The notes beneath the pieces were generated by a model that saw nothing but the letters and a program-made list of their open reading frames with translations, had not been told where the DNA came from and did no database searches. A stretch of DNA of 21,032 bases, taken from positions 1-21,032 of the IMG/VR virus record IMGVR_UViG_3300008448_010756; one strand, 5' to 3'. A program made the position numbers and the translations under genes. Each line of letters begins with the position of its first letter. Within the stretch, counting starts at the first letter, position 1. Below, one piece after another: positions 1,999 through 19,164 of this stretch. Source of the stretch: a virus.

Positions 1999-2625
1999 TT
2001 AAATGGGAATTAAGTCTAATTTATCATTATATTTTCCATATTGATTTCTACTTTCCTTTATTTTACCAAATCCAATTCTTTCATTTAGTTTCCCCCTTTT
2101 GTTAAGTCTTTGAAGACCTTTTGGTCCATTAGGAGTACTTACTAGCATATCATTTTCTTTAGGTTGATAGAATTCATTACCACTTTTTAATATTTTTTTA
2201 GCAAATTTTAAAACTTTAATATATATTGTTGCCTTCTGTCTACTATTTAAATGTATTATATTTAAACCAAGCTCAACTTTCCATCCAACTTCACAAATTC
2301 TTGCTTTCTCTTCGTAATAAATTTCATTTAAAAGTATTTTTATAGATTTAACTAACCTTCTATTTTTCATGAATTTAGAATATGTTAGATATGAATTATA
2401 TAAAAAACTTTTTTTATTTGGATAAAATAAATAAAATCCCGACAATGTGACGTTATTTGGCAAATGAATATCTCTCAATACCGGAACGTATATAAGTTTC
2501 GTATCATGAATTGGAGATCTATCACGAAAACCAAATTTCCTTAAAATTTTTTCAAACTCACATCTTTGTTTGGGTGCTTTTATTAAATATTTTCTTCTCT
2601 TAAATCTTTTAATTTTAGTTGACAT
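1999..2625 (-). CDS. Hypothetical protein, paralogue B (208 aa)
   Basis: This is the upstream gene of the minus-strand pair; 30 bases separate its stop from the ATG of paralogue A. It begins with a very basic stretch (KIKRFKRRKYLIKAPKQR) and then carries the same motif series: EFEKILRKFGFRDRSPIH at about residues 23-40, EEKARICEVGWKV in the middle, a D.L.S.P.GPK segment, and the terminal RIGFGKIK...QYGKYND...LIPI. No signal peptide or membrane segment is visible. No clear Shine-Dalgarno or sigma-70 promoter precedes it, only a run of TATA-like sequence at 2626-2650. Basic N-terminus and conserved acidic/His/Trp positions would suit a nucleic-acid enzyme, but this is only inference. Confidence 0.72.
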   Translation of the reverse strand: MSTKIKRFKRRKYLIKAPKQRCEFEKILRKFGFRDRSPIHDTKLIYVPVLRDIHLPNNVTLSGFYLFYPNKKSFLYNSYLTYSKFMKNRRLVKSIKILLNEIYYEEKARICEVGWKVELGLNIIHLNSRQKATIYIKVLKFAKKILKSGNEFYQPKENDMLVSTPNGPKGLQRLNKRGKLNERIGFGKIKESRNQYGKYNDKLDLIPI

Positions 2626-6459: not shown

Positions 6460-6471
6460 TTGGTATTGTAT

Positions 6472-7245
6472 ATGAATAGGATTAAAGATTTTTCTGATTT
6501 GAAAGATAGGATTGTTGAATGGATTCAACAATATTGTGTAGATAATTCTATCAAATCTCTTGTGATTGGGGTGTCTGGTGGAATTGATTCTGCAGTTTCT
6601 TCAACTCTTGCTGCCTCTACAGGTCTTCCTGTGTATGCACTTGGTATGCCAATTCATCAAAAAGAAGATCAGGAAGTATTATCTGATACGCATTTAGATT
6701 GGCTTCAACAAAACTTTTCTAATGTAATAGTTAATAAATTTGATCTTACTAAAGTTTTTGATACTTTCGAGTATACGATGAGGGAGTTTGGAGTAAATGA
6801 ACTCTCCCTTGCTAATAGCAGATCACGTCTTCGTATGATGACCTTATATCAAATTGCTGGATCTGTTGGTGGAATTGTTGTTGGAACTGGTAATAAAGTG
6901 GAAGATTATGGTATTGGATTTTATACAAAGTATGGTGATGGTGGAGTTGATATTGCCCCTATTGCGGACCTTTACAAGACAGAAGTGTGGAAACTTGGTG
7001 AGCATCTTGGTATAGATCAACGTATTATTGAAGCACAACCCACAGATGGTCTCTGGGAAGATGGGAGAACTGATGAGGATCAAATTGGAACCTCTTATGA
7101 GATGCTTGAGTGGGTAATGGAAAAAGGTTTTTATGAAGACCCCATGTTTTTAAGCGAAGAACAGATAAATGCCATATCTACATATAATAAATTCAACACA
7201 CAAAACAAACATAAAATGATTTCTATCCCCACTTTCAAATTATGA
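6472..7245 (+). CDS. nadE: NH3-dependent NAD synthetase
   Basis: It amidates nicotinic acid adenine dinucleotide to NAD with ATP and ammonia. The ATP pyrophosphatase loop SGGIDSA is at 35-41, GTGNKVED at 138-145, the YTKYGDGGVDIAPI segment at 151-164, and PTDGLWEDGRTDEDQIG at 190-206, all diagnostic of NadE. Length (257) fits the short, ammonia-using type; no glutaminase domain is present. The frame opens at 6460 with TTG, but the ATG at 6472 gives the natural MNRIKDF start. The next gene overlaps by ATGA. Inside a glycan operon it may sustain NAD for the three NAD-dependent sugar enzymes or for the infected cell. A shift toward amidating a sugar acid is a less likely alternative, given the intact NadE motifs. 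Confidence 0.9.
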   Translation: MNRIKDFSDLKDRIVEWIQQYCVDNSIKSLVIGVSGGIDSAVSSTLAASTGLPVYALGMPIHQKEDQEVLSDTHLDWLQQNFSNVIVNKFDLTKVFDTFEYTMREFGVNELSLANSRSRLRMMTLYQIAGSVGGIVVGTGNKVEDYGIGFYTKYGDGGVDIAPIADLYKTEVWKLGEHLGIDQRIIEAQPTDGLWEDGRTDEDQIGTSYEMLEWVMEKGFYEDPMFLSEEQINAISTYNKFNTQNKHKMISIPTFKL

Positions 7246-10557: not shown

Positions 10558-11367
10558 ATGAAAAAATATTATTTTTCTATTGCTTCGGTTTTTAAAAATG
10601 AAAGTTGGGGAATGAAAGAGTGGTTGGATCATTACAAATTTCATGGTGTCGATCACATTTATCTTGTAAATGATTTTAGCACTGATGATTATATGAATAT
10701 TCTCAATCCTTATATTGAGGATGGATTTGTTACTTTATATCATAATGACAATTCGGAAAGATATACTGGAAGACAAATTGATATTAATAATAAATTTTTT
10801 AAACCAGTTGTAAATGAAACTCAATGGATTGTTAATTTAGATCTTGATGAATTTCTTTATAGTCCTAAAGAAATGGATTTAAAAAATATATTGCAGAAAT
10901 ATGAATCGTATGCCTGCATAATTGCTAATTGGGTTTGGTTTAATTCTAATGGTCATGTCAAACAACCATCATCTATAGTTCATTCTTTTACGAAAAGATG
11001 TGAATATGACGGTAAAGTTTATATGAAAAGTCCTGGTAATTCTTTTTTTGAGTGGATTCAATTCAATGCTCCAAAAGTTATTTTAAATTCTGACTTTAGT
11101 ATAGAATCATTTAACATACATTCTGCTAAAGTAAATGGAAATGGTATTAATGTATCAACTCAAGATATGTCAGATGATCCTGAACTATTGATAAATCATT
11201 ATCAACTTCAATCTAGAGAATATTGGGAAAAGATTAAGATGAATCGGGGCGATGTAAATCATTGGTTCAAAGGATCTCCAAGAGATTTTGGGGGATATGA
11301 ATCCATGGATATTGGGGACATTGATGATTTTAGACTTTCGGAACAGAATAAGGAGATATGCAAATGA
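10558..11367 (+). CDS. GT92-like / GT-A glycosyltransferase
   Basis: The 269-residue inverting GT-A enzyme has the start pattern of the GT92/DUF23 and Glyco_tranf_2_4 group: SVFKNESWGMKEWLDHYKFH (10-29), then GVDHIYLVNDFSTDD. The metal-binding block is NLDLDEFLY (93-101), the characteristic DxDEF. The acceptor and sugar are not predictable; galactosyl transfer is common for GT92. GGAG at 10547-10550 lies seven bases before the ATG, one of the clearer ribosome sites in the operon. The end overlaps the following GT11 start by four bases (ATGA at 11364). No membrane segment is seen, so it should act at the cytoplasmic side. Confidence 0.8.
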   Translation: MKKYYFSIASVFKNESWGMKEWLDHYKFHGVDHIYLVNDFSTDDYMNILNPYIEDGFVTLYHNDNSERYTGRQIDINNKFFKPVVNETQWIVNLDLDEFLYSPKEMDLKNILQKYESYACIIANWVWFNSNGHVKQPSSIVHSFTKRCEYDGKVYMKSPGNSFFEWIQFNAPKVILNSDFSIESFNIHSAKVNGNGINVSTQDMSDDPELLINHYQLQSREYWEKIKMNRGDVNHWFKGSPRDFGGYESMDIGDIDDFRLSEQNKEICK

Positions 11368-12224
11368 TCGGAATGAATAACCTAGGTAAAAATGGTAGAC
11401 TAGGCAATCAAATGTTTCAATATGCGGCATTAGTAGGTATTGCTAAAAATCGTGGATTTGATTTTGCTATACCAGATTGCTCCAATGCTAAAAGTTTTGA
11501 TTACCATAATGGGCATTCAATCGTAACTGTATATCATCAATTGCAGCATTGTTTTGAAATGAGTTATTGTGATGGTAGATATGGATTAATTGATGGAGAT
11601 GAGGTAGATCTTCATGAGTCTCATGAATTTTGTCAGGAACTTTTTGATGAGTGTCCCGATAATGTTTCTTTAAATGGATATTTTGAGACTGAAAAATATT
11701 TTCAAAATGCCGAGGAAGAAATAAGACTTGATTATAAATTTAATAAAGAAATTATAGATCAAGTTGATTCTCATTTTGAATCTTATTTGGATCAAAATCC
11801 TGTTTCTATAGTGGTTAGGGATTTCAATGCAACTTTTGACCATCCTGGATGTGAACAGTCTCATAGAAATCTTCCATTTGAATATTTTGAAAAGGCAATT
11901 GAATTTATGGGAAAGGATAGAACATATATTATATGCTCTAACAATATTGAATTATGTAAAAAACAAACGCAATTTAAAGGTGAAAATTTTATTTTTAATG
12001 AAATTAATCCTGAAGGAATATATAAGGGGCATTTTGATTTGTGCTTAATTTCTAAATGTTCAGACTTTATTATTTCAAATAGTACATTTGCTTGGTGGGG
12101 TGCCTGGTTGGGAGAAAATAAAGATAAAAAAATTGTTTGCCCACACCCTTGGTATGGAGAGACTTTAAGTCATATTAAAACTGATGACTTATATCCGGAC
12201 AGTTGGATAAAAATTAATTGTTAA
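11364..12224 (+). CDS. GT11 fucosyltransferase-like, altered HxRRGDY motif
   Basis: Family 11 (alpha-1,2-fucosyltransferase type). The block GRLGNQMFQYAA is at 11-22, LNGYFETEKYF at 103-113, and the closing block NSTFAWWGAWL at 239-249. The normally near-invariant HxRRGDY donor-phosphate motif is replaced by VVRDFN (150-155), with only one Arg left. This suggests a changed donor, lower activity or decay. The protein is otherwise full length (286), unbroken, and carries the rest of the fold. The start at 11364 is chosen over ATG 11358 because AGGAG at 11351-11355 is eight bases away and because the second GT11 in the operon also begins MIG.N.LG. The two copies share MIG.N.LG..GRLGNQMFQY and look like diverged paralogues. 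Confidence 0.82.
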   Translation: MIGMNNLGKNGRLGNQMFQYAALVGIAKNRGFDFAIPDCSNAKSFDYHNGHSIVTVYHQLQHCFEMSYCDGRYGLIDGDEVDLHESHEFCQELFDECPDNVSLNGYFETEKYFQNAEEEIRLDYKFNKEIIDQVDSHFESYLDQNPVSIVVRDFNATFDHPGCEQSHRNLPFEYFEKAIEFMGKDRTYIICSNNIELCKKQTQFKGENFIFNEINPEGIYKGHFDLCLISKCSDFIISNSTFAWWGAWLGENKDKKIVCPHPWYGETLSHIKTDDLYPDSWIKINC

Positions 12225-14593: not shown

Positions 14594-15274
14594 ATGTTAG
14601 ATTTAAAAGATCCGTGGTCTTATTATGAAAGATCTGATTTAGAAAAATTAAAAGTAAAATTTAATGATATTGAAAAGATAGAACGTAATTATTCACAATC
14701 TTTTCAAGACATGTTTGTTCTTTCTATGTTAAATGGAAAAAGAAATGGAATATATGTGGAAGTGGGAGCTGCTGCTCCATTTTTTGCTAGCAATACATAT
14801 ATACTCGAACAAATTTTTGGGTGGACTGGAGTTTCGTTGGAAATTGATGGAACTAAAGTAAATTCATTTAACCACCATAGATCTAATAAATGCATTTGTT
14901 CAGATGCTATGGTAGTAAATTATACTAATATGTTTGAAGAAAATAATTTTCCAAAACAAATTGATTATTTGCAAATAGATATTGAACCTGCCTTTCAATC
15001 TTTAAATGCTCTAAAGAAAATTGATTTGGAAACTTATAGATTTTCTGTCATTACATTTGAAACGGACATTTATTCGGATAAGGATAATGAAAAAGTCCTT
15101 AAAGAGTCTAGAGAAATATTCCAAAAACATGGATATAAGTTAGTTGCATCCAATGTAAAATCTTGTGGATATCCTTATGAAGATTGGTATGTTGATCCTG
15201 AAATTGTTACTGAAGATATATGGAAAAACTTTAAATGTGATTCTTTTGAATGTACGAATATTTTATATAAATGA
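14594..15274 (+). CDS. FkbM-like methyltransferase, second type
   Basis: The 226-residue protein opens with a SQSFQDMFVLSML helix (34-46), then IYVEVGAAAPFFASNTYILE (53-72) as the SAM loop, GVSLEID (79-85) as motif II and DYLQIDIEPA (124-133) in the place of the usual D.(D/I)(V)EG. This matches the distant FkbM group with an S.(F/Q)QD..V leader often found in polysaccharide clusters. The canonical EG is EP here, so the substrate site may differ from the first FkbM protein of the operon. The ATG lies 15 bases after the previous stop; the end overlaps the kinase gene by ATGA. It precedes the heptose module directly, which makes the heptose a candidate substrate. Confidence 0.75.
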   Translation: MLDLKDPWSYYERSDLEKLKVKFNDIEKIERNYSQSFQDMFVLSMLNGKRNGIYVEVGAAAPFFASNTYILEQIFGWTGVSLEIDGTKVNSFNHHRSNKCICSDAMVVNYTNMFEENNFPKQIDYLQIDIEPAFQSLNALKKIDLETYRFSVITFETDIYSDKDNEKVLKESREIFQKHGYKLVASNVKSCGYPYEDWYVDPEIVTEDIWKNFKCDSFECTNILYK

Positions 15275-16218
15275 TTATTTCATCGTGCCCATTAAGAATA
15301 TCTTTATTTGGGGGATCTACAGATAATCCATTTTTTGTGGAAAAATTTGGATATGGATCTGTAATAAGTTTTACATGTGACTTAAAAACTTATGTAACTA
15401 TCAGTCAAGATAAATTTGGATTTAATCGAGATCAACATAAGTACATTGTTAATTATTCTCGTAGGGAGGAAGTGTTAGAAGTTAATCAAATTGAAAATGA
15501 TGTAGTAAGAGTTGTCCTAGAGTATTTTAATATGCCTCCAGTTCAAGTTACATTGACTAGTGATGCATATTCTCAGGGTAGTGGTCTTGCATCATCATCT
15601 TCATATATTATTAGTTTAATCAAATCCTGTATTATTTTTCTTGATATTCATATGACAGAGATTGAAATCTGTAAACTGGCATATGAGTTGGAGTTGAAAT
15701 TTAATCCTTATTGTGGGTATCAGGACCCTTATGGATGTGGTATTGGTGGATTCAAAAAAATAGAATTCATCAAAGGTGGTATTGTTAAGTATGATTTTCT
15801 ATCTACCAAAATGTTCAATGATTATGATATGCATCTTGTCTTTACTGGAGTTACTAGAAATTCAAAGAATATATTGAAAGATGTTTCTGAAAATATTGAT
15901 AAAGCAAAACCACTTTTAATAACTCTTGATGAATCTTATAAGACATTAATTAAAAATGATTATAGTCAATTTTTAAACTATCTCAAACAGAGTTGGATTC
16001 AAAAGAAAGAAACAAGTTCTACGATTATGGAAAATCATTCTGTTCAAGAAATGGATGATTTTTTGAATAATAATAATACCGTGATCGCACATAAGTTATG
16101 TGGTGCGGGAAACGGTGGATTTTTTCTCGTGTTTTCTGAAAAAGAAAACTTGAATATTCCTTATGAATCTGTTAGAATAAGTGTAACGCCTACTGGAGTA
16201 TCTGGGACTAGAATATGA
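15271..16218 (+). CDS. hddA: HddA-like heptose-7-phosphate kinase (GHMP family)
   Basis: A GHMP kinase of 315 residues. PLRISLFGGSTDNPFFVEKF near the start is the typical HddA opening, GSGLASSSS (103-111) is the ATP loop, QDPYGCGIGG (151-160) the substrate and metal region, and CGAGNGGFF (277-285) the third GHMP motif. The expected reaction is phosphorylation of D-glycero-D-manno-heptose 7-phosphate at C1. It sits as hddA-gmhA-phosphatase/nucleotidyltransferase with ATGA overlaps, the order of a compact NDP-heptose module. The known bacterial GDP-heptose route uses these steps in sequence. Other GHMP sugar kinases are possible, but the neighbouring isomerase makes heptose the best reading. 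Confidence 0.86.
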   Translation: MIISSCPLRISLFGGSTDNPFFVEKFGYGSVISFTCDLKTYVTISQDKFGFNRDQHKYIVNYSRREEVLEVNQIENDVVRVVLEYFNMPPVQVTLTSDAYSQGSGLASSSSYIISLIKSCIIFLDIHMTEIEICKLAYELELKFNPYCGYQDPYGCGIGGFKKIEFIKGGIVKYDFLSTKMFNDYDMHLVFTGVTRNSKNILKDVSENIDKAKPLLITLDESYKTLIKNDYSQFLNYLKQSWIQKKETSSTIMENHSVQEMDDFLNNNNTVIAHKLCGAGNGGFFLVFSEKENLNIPYESVRISVTPTGVSGTRI

Positions 16219-16718
16219 ATCCATTCGTAAGATATATTGAAGCACTTCAAGGTGCTCATATAGCAGAAGAATTTACCAAATTTTTTATCGCATTTGGTTC
16301 TCATAAAAGAATTATTATTCTTGGAAATGGTGGAAGTAACTCCGTAGCATCTCATATCTCTCAAGACTATATGAAGTTTCATGGAAAGAAAGTTTCCATT
16401 CTTTCTGATCCTTCAATGCTGACTATGCTTACAAATGACTTTGGGTATGAGAATGCGTATCAAAAGTTTTTAGAATATTATATTGAGGAAGATACTCTTG
16501 TCATTATTATGAGTTCTGGTGGTGAGTCTAAAAATATGTTAAATGCTCAACAATGGTGTGAAGATAACAAAGTCTCCTATGGAGTTTTGAGTGGGTTTAA
16601 AGAAAACAATTCATTGAGAACTAATTCAATAAATGCTCTCTGGAACTACTACATCAACAGCACTGATTATGGTGTAGTTGAATGTGTTCATCAAATCTTT
16701 CTTCATGGGGTAGTATGA
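16215..16718 (+). CDS. gmhA: GmhA-like sedoheptulose-7-phosphate isomerase (SIS domain)
   Basis: A single SIS-domain protein expected to convert sedoheptulose 7-phosphate to D-glycero-D-manno-heptose 7-phosphate. GNGGSNSVASH (37-47) binds the phosphate, NDFGYE (74-79) and MSSGGES (99-105) are the next SIS blocks, and VECVHQIFLH (155-164) is the C-terminal catalytic helix. At 167 residues it is shorter than E. coli GmhA (192). The usual acidic residue after the first block appears as SQDY in place of A.E, so catalysis may rest on a shifted Asp. Sedoheptulose 7-phosphate is abundant in the host's Calvin and pentose-phosphate cycles, which provides substrate. It overlaps both neighbours by ATGA. 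Confidence 0.83.
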   Translation: MNPFVRYIEALQGAHIAEEFTKFFIAFGSHKRIIILGNGGSNSVASHISQDYMKFHGKKVSILSDPSMLTMLTNDFGYENAYQKFLEYYIEEDTLVIIMSSGGESKNMLNAQQWCEDNKVSYGVLSGFKENNSLRTNSINALWNYYINSTDYGVVECVHQIFLHGVV

Positions 16719-17470
16719 GATATTGTTTTGATATTGATGGTACTCTTTGTAATACTCCAAATAATGAATTAGGAAAACCTGATTATATTAATGCCAAACC
16801 ATTTCCCTTTATGGTTGAGCAAGTTAATCGTTTATATGATGAAGGAAACTACATCATCATGCAGACTGCTAGAGGAAAGGGATCTGGTATTGATCATACC
16901 GAATTGACCAAAAAGCAACTTGATGAATGGGGATATAAGTATCACGAATTGTTCCCAATGTTCTGTAAACCGAATGCTGATATTTTTATAGATGATAAAG
17001 GAGTAAATGCCGTAGACTGGGCAGCATCTCAACCTAAAGTAAAAGGTATTATTGCCGGTGCATTTGATATAATTCATCCCGGATATGTTAGAATGTTTGA
17101 AGATTGCAGAATGTATTGTAATCATCTTACCGTCGCTTTACATGCAGATCCTTCATTGGAAAGAGATTATAAACTAAAACCAGTTCATTCTGTTTCAGAA
17201 AGAATAGAAATACTTTTGTCTATGAAGTATGTTGATAGTGTTGTAGTTTATGCTGTAGAAAGTGAGTTTCATAATTATCTCAGTAGTGGAAATTATGATG
17301 TTAGATTTTTAGGAACAGATTATATTGATGGGAAGTATACTGGAAAGGATATAGATATTAATATTGTGTGGTTAGATAGGGAATCGCACGAATACTCAAG
17401 TACAAGATTAAAAAATTTAATTTTTGAATCAGTTTATTTAAAAAAAATGGAGCGTGAAAATTATGACTAA
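16715..17470 (+). CDS. HAD phosphatase fused to cytidylyltransferase-like domain
   Basis: Two enzyme domains in 251 residues. Residues 1-105 are a HAD phosphatase: DIDGT at 6-10 with D6/D8, TAR at 51-53 and IDDK at 92-95. Residues 110-251 are a cytidylyltransferase-like domain: GAFDIIHPGY (115-124), SERIEIL (161-167) and SSTRLK (228-233). Its HxGH motif reads HPGY, so the second His is Tyr. Next to the heptose kinase and isomerase the expected job is to remove the C7 phosphate (GmhB role) and load a nucleotide on heptose 1-phosphate. The transferase resembles the HldE/TagD type and not the GDP-forming HddC type. The ATG at 16715 lies in an ATGA overlap; the frame upstream of it is the 3' end of gmhA in another frame. 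Confidence 0.83.
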   Translation: MRYCFDIDGTLCNTPNNELGKPDYINAKPFPFMVEQVNRLYDEGNYIIMQTARGKGSGIDHTELTKKQLDEWGYKYHELFPMFCKPNADIFIDDKGVNAVDWAASQPKVKGIIAGAFDIIHPGYVRMFEDCRMYCNHLTVALHADPSLERDYKLKPVHSVSERIEILLSMKYVDSVVVYAVESEFHNYLSSGNYDVRFLGTDYIDGKYTGKDIDINIVWLDRESHEYSSTRLKNLIFESVYLKKMERENYD

Positions 17471-18362
17471 AAGTTTGGTTACTGGTGGTGCAGGATTTAT
17501 TGGATCTCATCTAGTAGATAAATTATTGGAACTTGGTCACGAAGTTGTCGTAATTGATAATGAGTATGCCGAGTGTCATGAGCAATTTTATTGGAATGAT
17601 GGGGCACAAAATTATAAGTATGATATTCGTGATTATGAAAATACTAGACCTCTTTATGAAGGAGTTGATTATGTTTTTCATGTTGCCGCAGAGGCAAGAA
17701 TTCAACCTGCCATTTTAAATCCTATTGAAGCAGTTAGTATTAATTCTGTTGGAACAGTTACAGTGCTTCAGTGTGCAAGGGAGGCAGGAGTTAAGAAGGT
17801 AATGTACTCATCCACCTCTTCTGGATATGGTTTTAATGAACCACCTAACCATGAAGATCAACCAGATGATTGCTTAAACCCATATTCTGTTTCTAAAGTT
17901 TCTGGCGAAAAACTTTGTTCAATGTATACAAAATTATTTGGATTGAATACAGTTATTTTCAGATATTTTAATGTATATGGAGAACGTTCACCTATTAAAG
18001 GTCAATATGCTCCTGTTATTGGAATTTTTCTGCGACAAAAAAATGATAATGAACCATTAACTATTGTTGGTGATGGTGAACAGAGAAGAGATTTTACTCA
18101 TGTATCTGATGTTGTATCTGCAAATATTGCTGCTGCTATTTCTGATGTTTCTGATGAAAATTATGGGCAACTGTATAATATTGGAAATGGTACAAATTAT
18201 TCCATTAATGAAATTGCAGATTCTATCTCAAGTAATCAGGTTAATATTCCTCCAAGAGTTGGTGAGGCAAGAACAACCTTGGCTAATAATAGTAAAATGA
18301 GAAAAGTTTTTAATTGGGAACCCAAAGTAAATCTTTTCCAGTGGATTTCTGATCATAAATGA
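17463..18362 (+). CDS. NAD-dependent UDP-hexose/HexNAc 4-epimerase-like SDR
   Basis: Extended SDR enzyme of 299 residues. TGGAGFIGS (7-15) binds the dinucleotide, D32 after the second strand favours NAD, and SSTSSGYG (116-123) with Y141-x3-K145 form the catalytic set. RYFNVYGERS, a DGEQRRDFTHV.D segment and NIGNGTNYSINE complete the epimerase pattern (close to UDP-GlcNAc/UDP-Glc 4-epimerases of polysaccharide clusters). It would supply UDP-Gal or UDP-GalNAc, the donors expected by the GT6 and galactosyltransferase genes. Dehydratase activity on another NDP-sugar remains possible. The ATG at 17463 has GGAG (17449-17452) ten bases upstream; the GTG at 17454 is too close to it. It overlaps the previous gene by 8 bases. 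Confidence 0.86.
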   Translation: MTKSLVTGGAGFIGSHLVDKLLELGHEVVVIDNEYAECHEQFYWNDGAQNYKYDIRDYENTRPLYEGVDYVFHVAAEARIQPAILNPIEAVSINSVGTVTVLQCAREAGVKKVMYSSTSSGYGFNEPPNHEDQPDDCLNPYSVSKVSGEKLCSMYTKLFGLNTVIFRYFNVYGERSPIKGQYAPVIGIFLRQKNDNEPLTIVGDGEQRRDFTHVSDVVSANIAAAISDVSDENYGQLYNIGNGTNYSINEIADSISSNQVNIPPRVGEARTTLANNSKMRKVFNWEPKVNLFQWISDHK

Positions 18363-18363
18363 A

Positions 18364-19164
18364 ATGATAGGATTTAATCATCTAGGTAGACTGGGAAGAC
18401 TTGGAAATCAAATGTTCCAGTACGCGGCATTGAAAGGAATTGCCAAGCATAAGAACTATGAATTCTGTATACCATATTATGCAGAATCTGTTAATGATGG
18501 TATTGGGAATTATTTGAAGACAGAACTATTCAATGCTTTTGAATTGAAAGTTGAAAACATTCAACATGTCAGAGGACCGTATATTAACGAACCTCACTTT
18601 CATTTTTCTGAACAATTTTTTAATGACTGTCCTGATAATGTCTCTTTAAATGGATTTTTTCAAACAGAAAAATATTTTAAACACATTGAAAATGAGATTC
18701 GTGAAGATTTTACCTTTAAAAAAGAAATAAGAGATTCTTGTTTAGAAGTATTTAATGAGTTAGATTTAAAAAATCCAATTGCTTTACATATTCGTAGAGG
18801 AGATTATGTTATTAATTCAAACCGCCATCCTGTAATGCCCTTGAGTTATTATGAAACTTCTCTTTCTAACTTTGACAAAGATAGAGAAGTAATTGTTTTT
18901 TCTGATGATCCATCTTGGTGTAAGGAGCAAGAACTTTTTTCTGAAGATAGATTTTTAGTTTCCGAAGGAACTGATACTTACCATGATTTATGCCTAATGT
19001 CAATGTGTTCTGATTTTATTATTGGCAACTCATCTTTTTCCTGGTGGGCAGCATGGTTGGCAAATAGAGGTAAAGTTTTTTATCCATCTATTTGGTTTGG
19101 ACCAGAATTAAATAATGATCTAAAAGATTTATTCCCAGAAGAATGGGTTGAGGTGCAATTATGA
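18364..19164 (+). CDS. GT11 alpha-1,2-fucosyltransferase-type glycosyltransferase
   Basis: Intact family 11 enzyme of 266 residues: GRLGNQMFQYAA (11-22), LNGFFQTEKYF (95-105), HIRRGDY (142-148), FSDDPSW (179-185) and NSSFSWWAAWL (222-232). The classical reaction moves L-fucose from GDP-fucose onto O2 of a galactose. No GDP-fucose synthesis gene is in the window, whereas a GDP-mannose 3,5-epimerase is, so GDP-L-galactose is an alternative donor. It is the functional-looking partner of the altered GT11 at 11364. The ATG is the base after the previous stop plus one. The ATGA overlap links it to the next transferase. Confidence 0.88.
   Translation: MIGFNHLGRLGRLGNQMFQYAALKGIAKHKNYEFCIPYYAESVNDGIGNYLKTELFNAFELKVENIQHVRGPYINEPHFHFSEQFFNDCPDNVSLNGFFQTEKYFKHIENEIREDFTFKKEIRDSCLEVFNELDLKNPIALHIRRGDYVINSNRHPVMPLSYYETSLSNFDKDREVIVFSDDPSWCKEQELFSEDRFLVSEGTDTYHDLCLMSMCSDFIIGNSSFSWWAAWLANRGKVFYPSIWFGPELNNDLKDLFPEEWVEVQL

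Follow-up and report, generated by a model that had tools for sequence, protein, structure and literature searches.

The question raised by this locus is which reactions are carried out by a protein that joins a HAD-type phosphatase to a nucleotidyltransferase in which a tyrosine takes the place of the second histidine of the HxGH motif. The protein is encoded in a viral record 21,032 bases long, analysed here as a whole and referred to as the window, which is of the T4-like marine cyanophage type and has Synechococcus phages as its best nucleotide matches. Our best explanation, to which we give about even chances, is that the fusion acts as a bifunctional heptose-1,7-bisphosphate phosphatase/heptose-1-phosphate cytidylyltransferase, which would supply CDP-(alpha)-heptose, or a very similar sugar, for a surface glycan.

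The right two thirds of the window form a glycan island that encodes epimerases, a UDP-glucose-dehydrogenase-type enzyme, methyltransferases, and glycosyltransferases. The fusion is the third of four overlapping genes that form a block on the plus strand: an HddA-like GHMP sugar-phosphate kinase (15271-16218), a GmhA-like SIS isomerase with sedoheptulose 7-phosphate as its predicted substrate (16215-16718), the fusion itself (16715-17470), and a GalE-type SDR epimerase (17463-18362). The fusion ORF runs from an ATG at 16715 to a TAA ending at 17470, shares the four bases ATGA with the end of the GmhA-like gene, and is overlapped at its end by the first 8 bases of the epimerase gene. An alternative in-frame ATG lies upstream at 16682; position 16715 was chosen as the start because of the ATGA overlap and the alignment with the starts of its relatives. 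In our NCBIfam scan, none of the four genes scored above any curated equivalog cut-off for heptose enzymes. Elsewhere in the island are an NAD synthase-like enzyme above the nadE cut-off (6460-7245) and two members of glycosyltransferase family 11, which resemble fucosyltransferases (11358-12224 and 18364-19164). Two adjacent look-alike proteins without known function (1303-1998 and 1999-2625, minus strand) appear by eye to be a tandem duplication.

The preliminary description placed a phosphatase and a nucleotidyltransferase in one polypeptide, and this holds: the ORF of 251 residues comprises a HAD domain (residues 1-105, 16715-17029) followed by a cytidylyltransferase-fold domain (residues 108-251, 17036-17467), as indicated by PF01467, alignments, and fold matches, and its AlphaFold2 model has a mean pLDDT of 87.8. 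The first half has the size of a capless HAD enzyme and contains FDIDGT with D6, D8, and T10, followed by T51, K85, and D93/D94; this signature (DxDxT, T/S, K, DD) shows little or no variation among 45 distinct fusions. That the phosphatase would be of the GmhB type is ruled out by our family scans, in which residues 1-104 gave no match to a HAD model of Pfam or NCBIfam at E<=1e-3. The domain matches phrog_1238, and its nearest solved relative is PDB 9iqw (sequence match 1.7e-9; fold match with 37% identity), whose title reads phage HY126 D-arabinose 1,5-diphosphate phosphatase AfhF and therefore supports the role of a sugar 1,n-bisphosphate phosphatase for the HAD half. A literature search found no relevant paper for 9IQW, AfhF/HY126, or the HPGY/HXGY motif. 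In public records, the small HAD phosphatase that cyanophages and T4-like phages encode (L003:6086-6430, L004:5001-5366, phrog_1238) is misannotated as 'phosphoheptose isomerase', although it is a HAD protein and no isomerase.

The nature of this relative raises the alternative of the same chemistry on another sugar, with a CDP-pentose or another aldose 1-phosphate being made, comparable to the phage D-arabinose route, and the SIS enzyme using some other ketose phosphate. It is also favored by the T4-like phages, in which the HAD-family gene adjoins a nucleotidyl transferase gene, and by two substitutions in the neighbouring isomerase. Our residue census of the isomerases of the block showed that they differ from E. 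coli GmhA by E65D and Q172E, with Asp at the Glu65 position in 62 of the 63 sequences that have a residue there and the His180 counterpart kept in all 64 (Glu65 and His180 are active-site residues of E. coli GmhA). Since both substitutions lie at positions important in GmhA, the ketose may differ from sedoheptulose 7-phosphate, and the pair may represent a coordinated swap that accommodates another ketose substrate. Against this stand the PDB relatives of the two enzymes: the four best for the kinase belong to the HddA group of D-glycero-D-manno-heptose (or sugar) kinases (1e-26 to 1e-21), and all 13 for the isomerase are phosphoheptose isomerases. We therefore consider another sugar rather unlikely, and the HddA/GmhA setting recognized in the preliminary description is retained, with the reservation that the kinase reaches 101 bits against the NF049969 cut-off of 600 and the isomerase 48 bits against the TIGR00441 cut-off of 209. 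The epimerase has UDP-glucose 4-epimerases as its best PDB relatives. It is labelled heptose 6-epimerase in a Synechococcus phage record, but it was not HldD-like in our analysis, and the HldD annotation (MT408532) is unsupported, as TIGR01179 (152 bits) outscores TIGR02197 (105 bits) and the PDB relatives are GalE-type.

The second half of the fusion matches PF01467 (CTP_transf_like) at residues 113-231 with 38.6 bits, above the cut-off of 21, and its best Foldseek matches are glycerol-3-phosphate cytidylyltransferase (GCT; 2b7l and 1coz) and HldC (5xf2). The sugar nucleotidyltransferase fold with GXGXR that defines HddC is thus replaced here by a cytidylyltransferase-like fold, as had been proposed. 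The profile of this half scores highest against the CTP:ethanolamine-phosphate cytidylyltransferase 3elb and GCT. The C. jejuni CDP-glucitol enzyme HS5.18, considered as a relative, belongs to another family (PF01128). In a maximum-likelihood tree of 97 nucleotidyltransferase domains, the HPGY enzymes form a single clade (support 100/97) whose sister is a bacterial HxGH family without known substrate; the clade lies on the GCT side, apart from HldC/E, and the GCT branch is long.

Special attention was given to the column of R113 in GCT, the arginine of RTEGIST. In PfCCT the corresponding residue, R755, stacks on the cytosine, and a similar movement has been reported for ECT and GCT (PMC6060094). 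In the fusion, the counterpart of RTEG(I/V)ST is R222-E-S-H-E-Y-S-S-T230 (17378-17404), and our alignment census found arginine at this column in 33 of 33 phage-type and 20 of 20 bacterial HPGY enzymes (53/53), as well as in all six members of the sister family and all 13 phage HPGH enzymes. HldC/E have Phe, Leu, or Tyr in 23 of 23 cases. Since the phage HPGH enzymes, some of which lie beside PfkB kinases, carry it too, the arginine may mark more than the use of CTP. The hallmark of CDP/UDP-heptose promiscuity in HENases, (F/L)XXGRSTT or STTR5 (PMC11461863, PMC11573728), is absent from the alignment of the fusion, which reads RESHEYSST with Tyr/Trp at the Arg5 position. From the invariant arginine, the position on the GCT side of the tree, and the absence of STTR5, we infer that CTP is the most likely donor.

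These same data bear on the alternative that the fusion is a heptose enzyme with another nucleotide, making ADP- or UDP-heptose or being promiscuous, as known HENases can be (PMC11461863). The best single NCBIfam match is indeed rfaE_dom_II (TIGR02199; 52.5 bits, below the equivalog cut-off of 181.5), and HldC counts among its best matches by fold; however, arginine never occurs in HldC/E at the R222 column, STTR5 is lacking, and HPGY groups with GCT, which together make this alternative unlikely. The earlier suggestion of a non-standard NDP-heptose stands in part: a product other than ADP- or GDP-heptose is plausible, and the evidence leans towards CTP, but the HPGY motif alone says nothing about the heptose or the nucleotide. 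Several cyanophage HPGH enzymes are named 'heptose 1-phosphate adenyltransferase' (L003:4974-5390, L028:2781-3218, and L042:2799-3218), a label that is doubtful because they carry the CTP-type arginine; some phages carry HPGH and HPGY modules together.

The tyrosine itself, as first described, lies in GAFDIIHPGY (residues 115-124), where H121-P-G-Y124 (17075-17086) ends with a TAT codon. It is important to note that a sequencing error or an isolated mutation is ruled out by the presence of HPGY in 54 of the 55 fusion ORFs of our first viral set (and of Y124 in 44 of the 45 distinct sequences among them); the lone exception, L072, has HRGH, is 43% identical, and lies elsewhere in the tree. Tyrosine also occupies the position in all bacterial members of the clade that could be read. 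Comparison of the fusion with six relatives (dN 0.16-0.21, dS 0.96-1.25, dN/dS about 0.15-0.2) indicates purifying selection. Phage and bacterial HPGY proteins show no variation at F117, D118, H121, K153, R163, R222, and S228, and H225 is kept throughout both the HPGY clade and its sister family. The second histidine of HxGH is regarded as essential across a large superfamily, and in a bacterial FAD synthetase its change to Ala or Asp abolished activity, Tyr not being among the changes made (PMC3509593). This precedent is the argument for a catalytically dead HPGY domain that would serve the phosphatase for binding or as a scaffold. The conservation of D118, H121, K153, R163, R222, and S228 speaks against such a role, as does a Prochlorococcus fusion (L223) whose HAD half is degenerate while HPGY is intact; we regard a dead domain as very unlikely, and the inactivity of HPGY proteins, mentioned at the outset as a possible objection, is unlikely given this conservation. 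Judging from the sequences, the domain is probably active, with Tyr124, perhaps together with His225, replacing the second histidine. A natural and widespread clade with tyrosine at this position offers a direct test of transition-state stabilization in HxGH enzymes.

A search for the same fusion and the HPGY variant had been recommended, and it proved productive. Our scan of viral contigs identified the fusion in 53 IMG/VR contigs besides the window and in the isolated Synechococcus phage SynMITS9220M01. In 57 of 61 fusions a GmhA-like gene lies upstream at a distance of at most two genes; of the remaining four, three are truncated by contig ends and the last is L072. The full order HddA-GmhA-fusion-epimerase is found in 41 of the 61. 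In one contig binned as an archaeon (L090:5509-6441), a GmhA-like isomerase is fused straight to an HPGY domain without HAD, with an HddA-like gene nearby; no further GmhA-HPGY fusions were found in the viral contigs.

Among cells, the fusion is present in five of 300 genomes of the family of Prochlorococcus. Two 85-kb Prochlorococcus contigs carry the block, one also encoding AcnB, polyphosphate kinase, FtsZ, and CbiB and the other MurA and ArgD, and in a 1.94-Mb contig of the same family the block lies amid genes resembling glycosyltransferases. Another Prochlorococcus (L224/L225; G428:C1 near 1263254) has a related HAD joined to a classical GmhA, and the genes on either side resemble, by eye, NeuB- and NeuA-type genes, so that members of the HAD family take part in other routes too; this HAD-GmhA fusion points to a related phosphosugar route that would yield a CMP-ulosonate.

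Stand-alone HPGY enzymes were identified within the HPGY clade in marine Flavobacteria and gammaproteobacteria. Although this bacterial set was gathered with the HPGY pattern and is therefore biased, a search without this bias, made in one order, found only HxGY (one being HMGY) among the close homologues with a readable motif. Only four of the 22 marine genomes that encode a stand-alone HPGY enzyme had a convincing GmhA, which rules out HPGY as a marker of heptose, and HddA was above its cut-off in none of the 22; we read two GHMP matches in gammaproteobacterial genomes as HMG-CoA reductase-mevalonate kinase fusions. As the stand-alone enzymes mostly occur without a heptose pathway, HPGY is specific neither to phages nor to heptose but marks a clade, and as most lack gmhA, the substrate of the clade is not heptose in general. 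The settings also vary: in Arcticimaribacter (L105:3803-8232) the gene lies, by eye, between trehalose-phosphate synthase/phosphatase-like and glucoamylase-like genes, a very different setting, and in a marine gammaproteobacterium (L107:4848-6411) it directly follows a LapB-like gene (TPR and rubredoxin-type metal-binding domain). The scarcity of gmhA beside stand-alone enzymes, and the place of GCT among the closest characterized families by profile, fold, and tree, are compatible with a TagD-like enzyme that transfers a cytidylyl group to glycerol 3-phosphate or some other non-sugar phosphate, the heptose neighbours being incidental. We consider this very unlikely in view of the near-invariant linkage to HddA- and GmhA-like genes, the fusion in L090, and a GCT score (TIGR01518) of 41.8 bits against an equivalog cut-off of 165.4.

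In the reading that we prefer, the fusion would perform the final two reactions in a route to a nucleotide-heptose (or closely similar sugar). Sedoheptulose 7-phosphate would be isomerized by the GmhA-like enzyme, and the HddA-like kinase is predicted to phosphorylate C1 and yield the alpha 1,7-bisphosphate; HddA-type kinases give the alpha anomer (PMC10680097), and for this reason CDP-alpha-heptose is the predicted product of the fusion, whose His225 may help compensate for the replacement of the second histidine by Tyr124. The GalE-type epimerase may then modify the product, and the glycosyltransferases of the island would put it into a surface glycan. Such a route is supported by the gene order, the overlapping start and stop codons, the kinase and isomerase matches, and the fusion in L090; by the sugar-1,5-bisphosphate phosphatase 9iqw, the position of the HPGY clade on the GCT side, and arginine in 53/53 vs 0/23; and by purifying selection and the same module among glycan genes on Prochlorococcus chromosomes. 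Counting against it are the equivalog cut-offs that no gene passed, E65D/Q172E, the loss of activity without the second histidine in FAD synthetase, the stand-alone HPGY enzymes mostly without gmhA, the arginine in phage HPGH enzymes, and the long GCT branch. The earlier mention of immune signalling in animals finds no support, as nothing ties it to the cyanophage enzyme.

The HAD-cytidylyltransferase fusion is a new architecture: three architectures have been described for HENases, and a HAD-fused one is not among them (PMC11461863, PMC11573728). Heptose pathways in viruses have been described without a phosphatase (PMC11461863), a gap that the fusion fills with a HAD of another family. More tentatively, and as a possibility that we rate below an even chance, cyanophages and some Prochlorococcus may possess a third route to activated heptose, in which an HxGH-fold alpha-heptose 1-phosphate cytidylyltransferase, with Tyr for the second His, is fused to an AfhF-type bisphosphate phosphatase and makes CDP-alpha-heptose. 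If true, this would be a nucleotide sugar, for which we found no description, common to cyanophages and their hosts.

Compared with known systems, the fusion shares with GCT/TagD (1coz, 2b7l), its best Foldseek match and among its best profile matches, the fold, the first histidine, and the counterparts of R55, R113, and ST(T), and differs by Tyr for His17, the HAD domain, the heptose-like setting, and a score far below the TIGR01518 cut-off. With HldC and the C-terminal domain of HldE (HENases, Tang et al. 2024) it has in common the fold and the predicted step of the route, but these enzymes have HxGH and Phe/Leu where the fusion has HPGY and Arg and lacks STTR5, and their route employs a PfkB (beta) kinase in place of the GHMP (alpha) kinase of the block. 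AfhF (9iqw) resembles the HAD half at 37% identity, but it stands alone and acts on a pentose bisphosphate, in a context that we read, from its T4-like relatives, as DNA modification. The three-gene modules of cyanophages (P-SSM2, PSSM2_309-311) have neighbouring genes for a CTP_transf_like enzyme, a sugar kinase, and a member of the same HAD family, but these genes are separate, with a PfkB kinase and HPGH, whereas the window has a fused protein, a GHMP kinase, and HPGY. A parallel in the order of steps is the GDP-heptose-type route (HddA/GmhA/HddC; PMC10680097), with its HddA-like kinase, GmhA-like isomerase, HAD phosphatase, and nucleotidyltransferase; in the block, an enzyme of unrelated fold stands in for HddC, which has the sugar nucleotidyltransferase fold with GXGXR (PMC6981941), and the phosphatase fused to that enzyme is of the AfhF type and not of the GmhB type.
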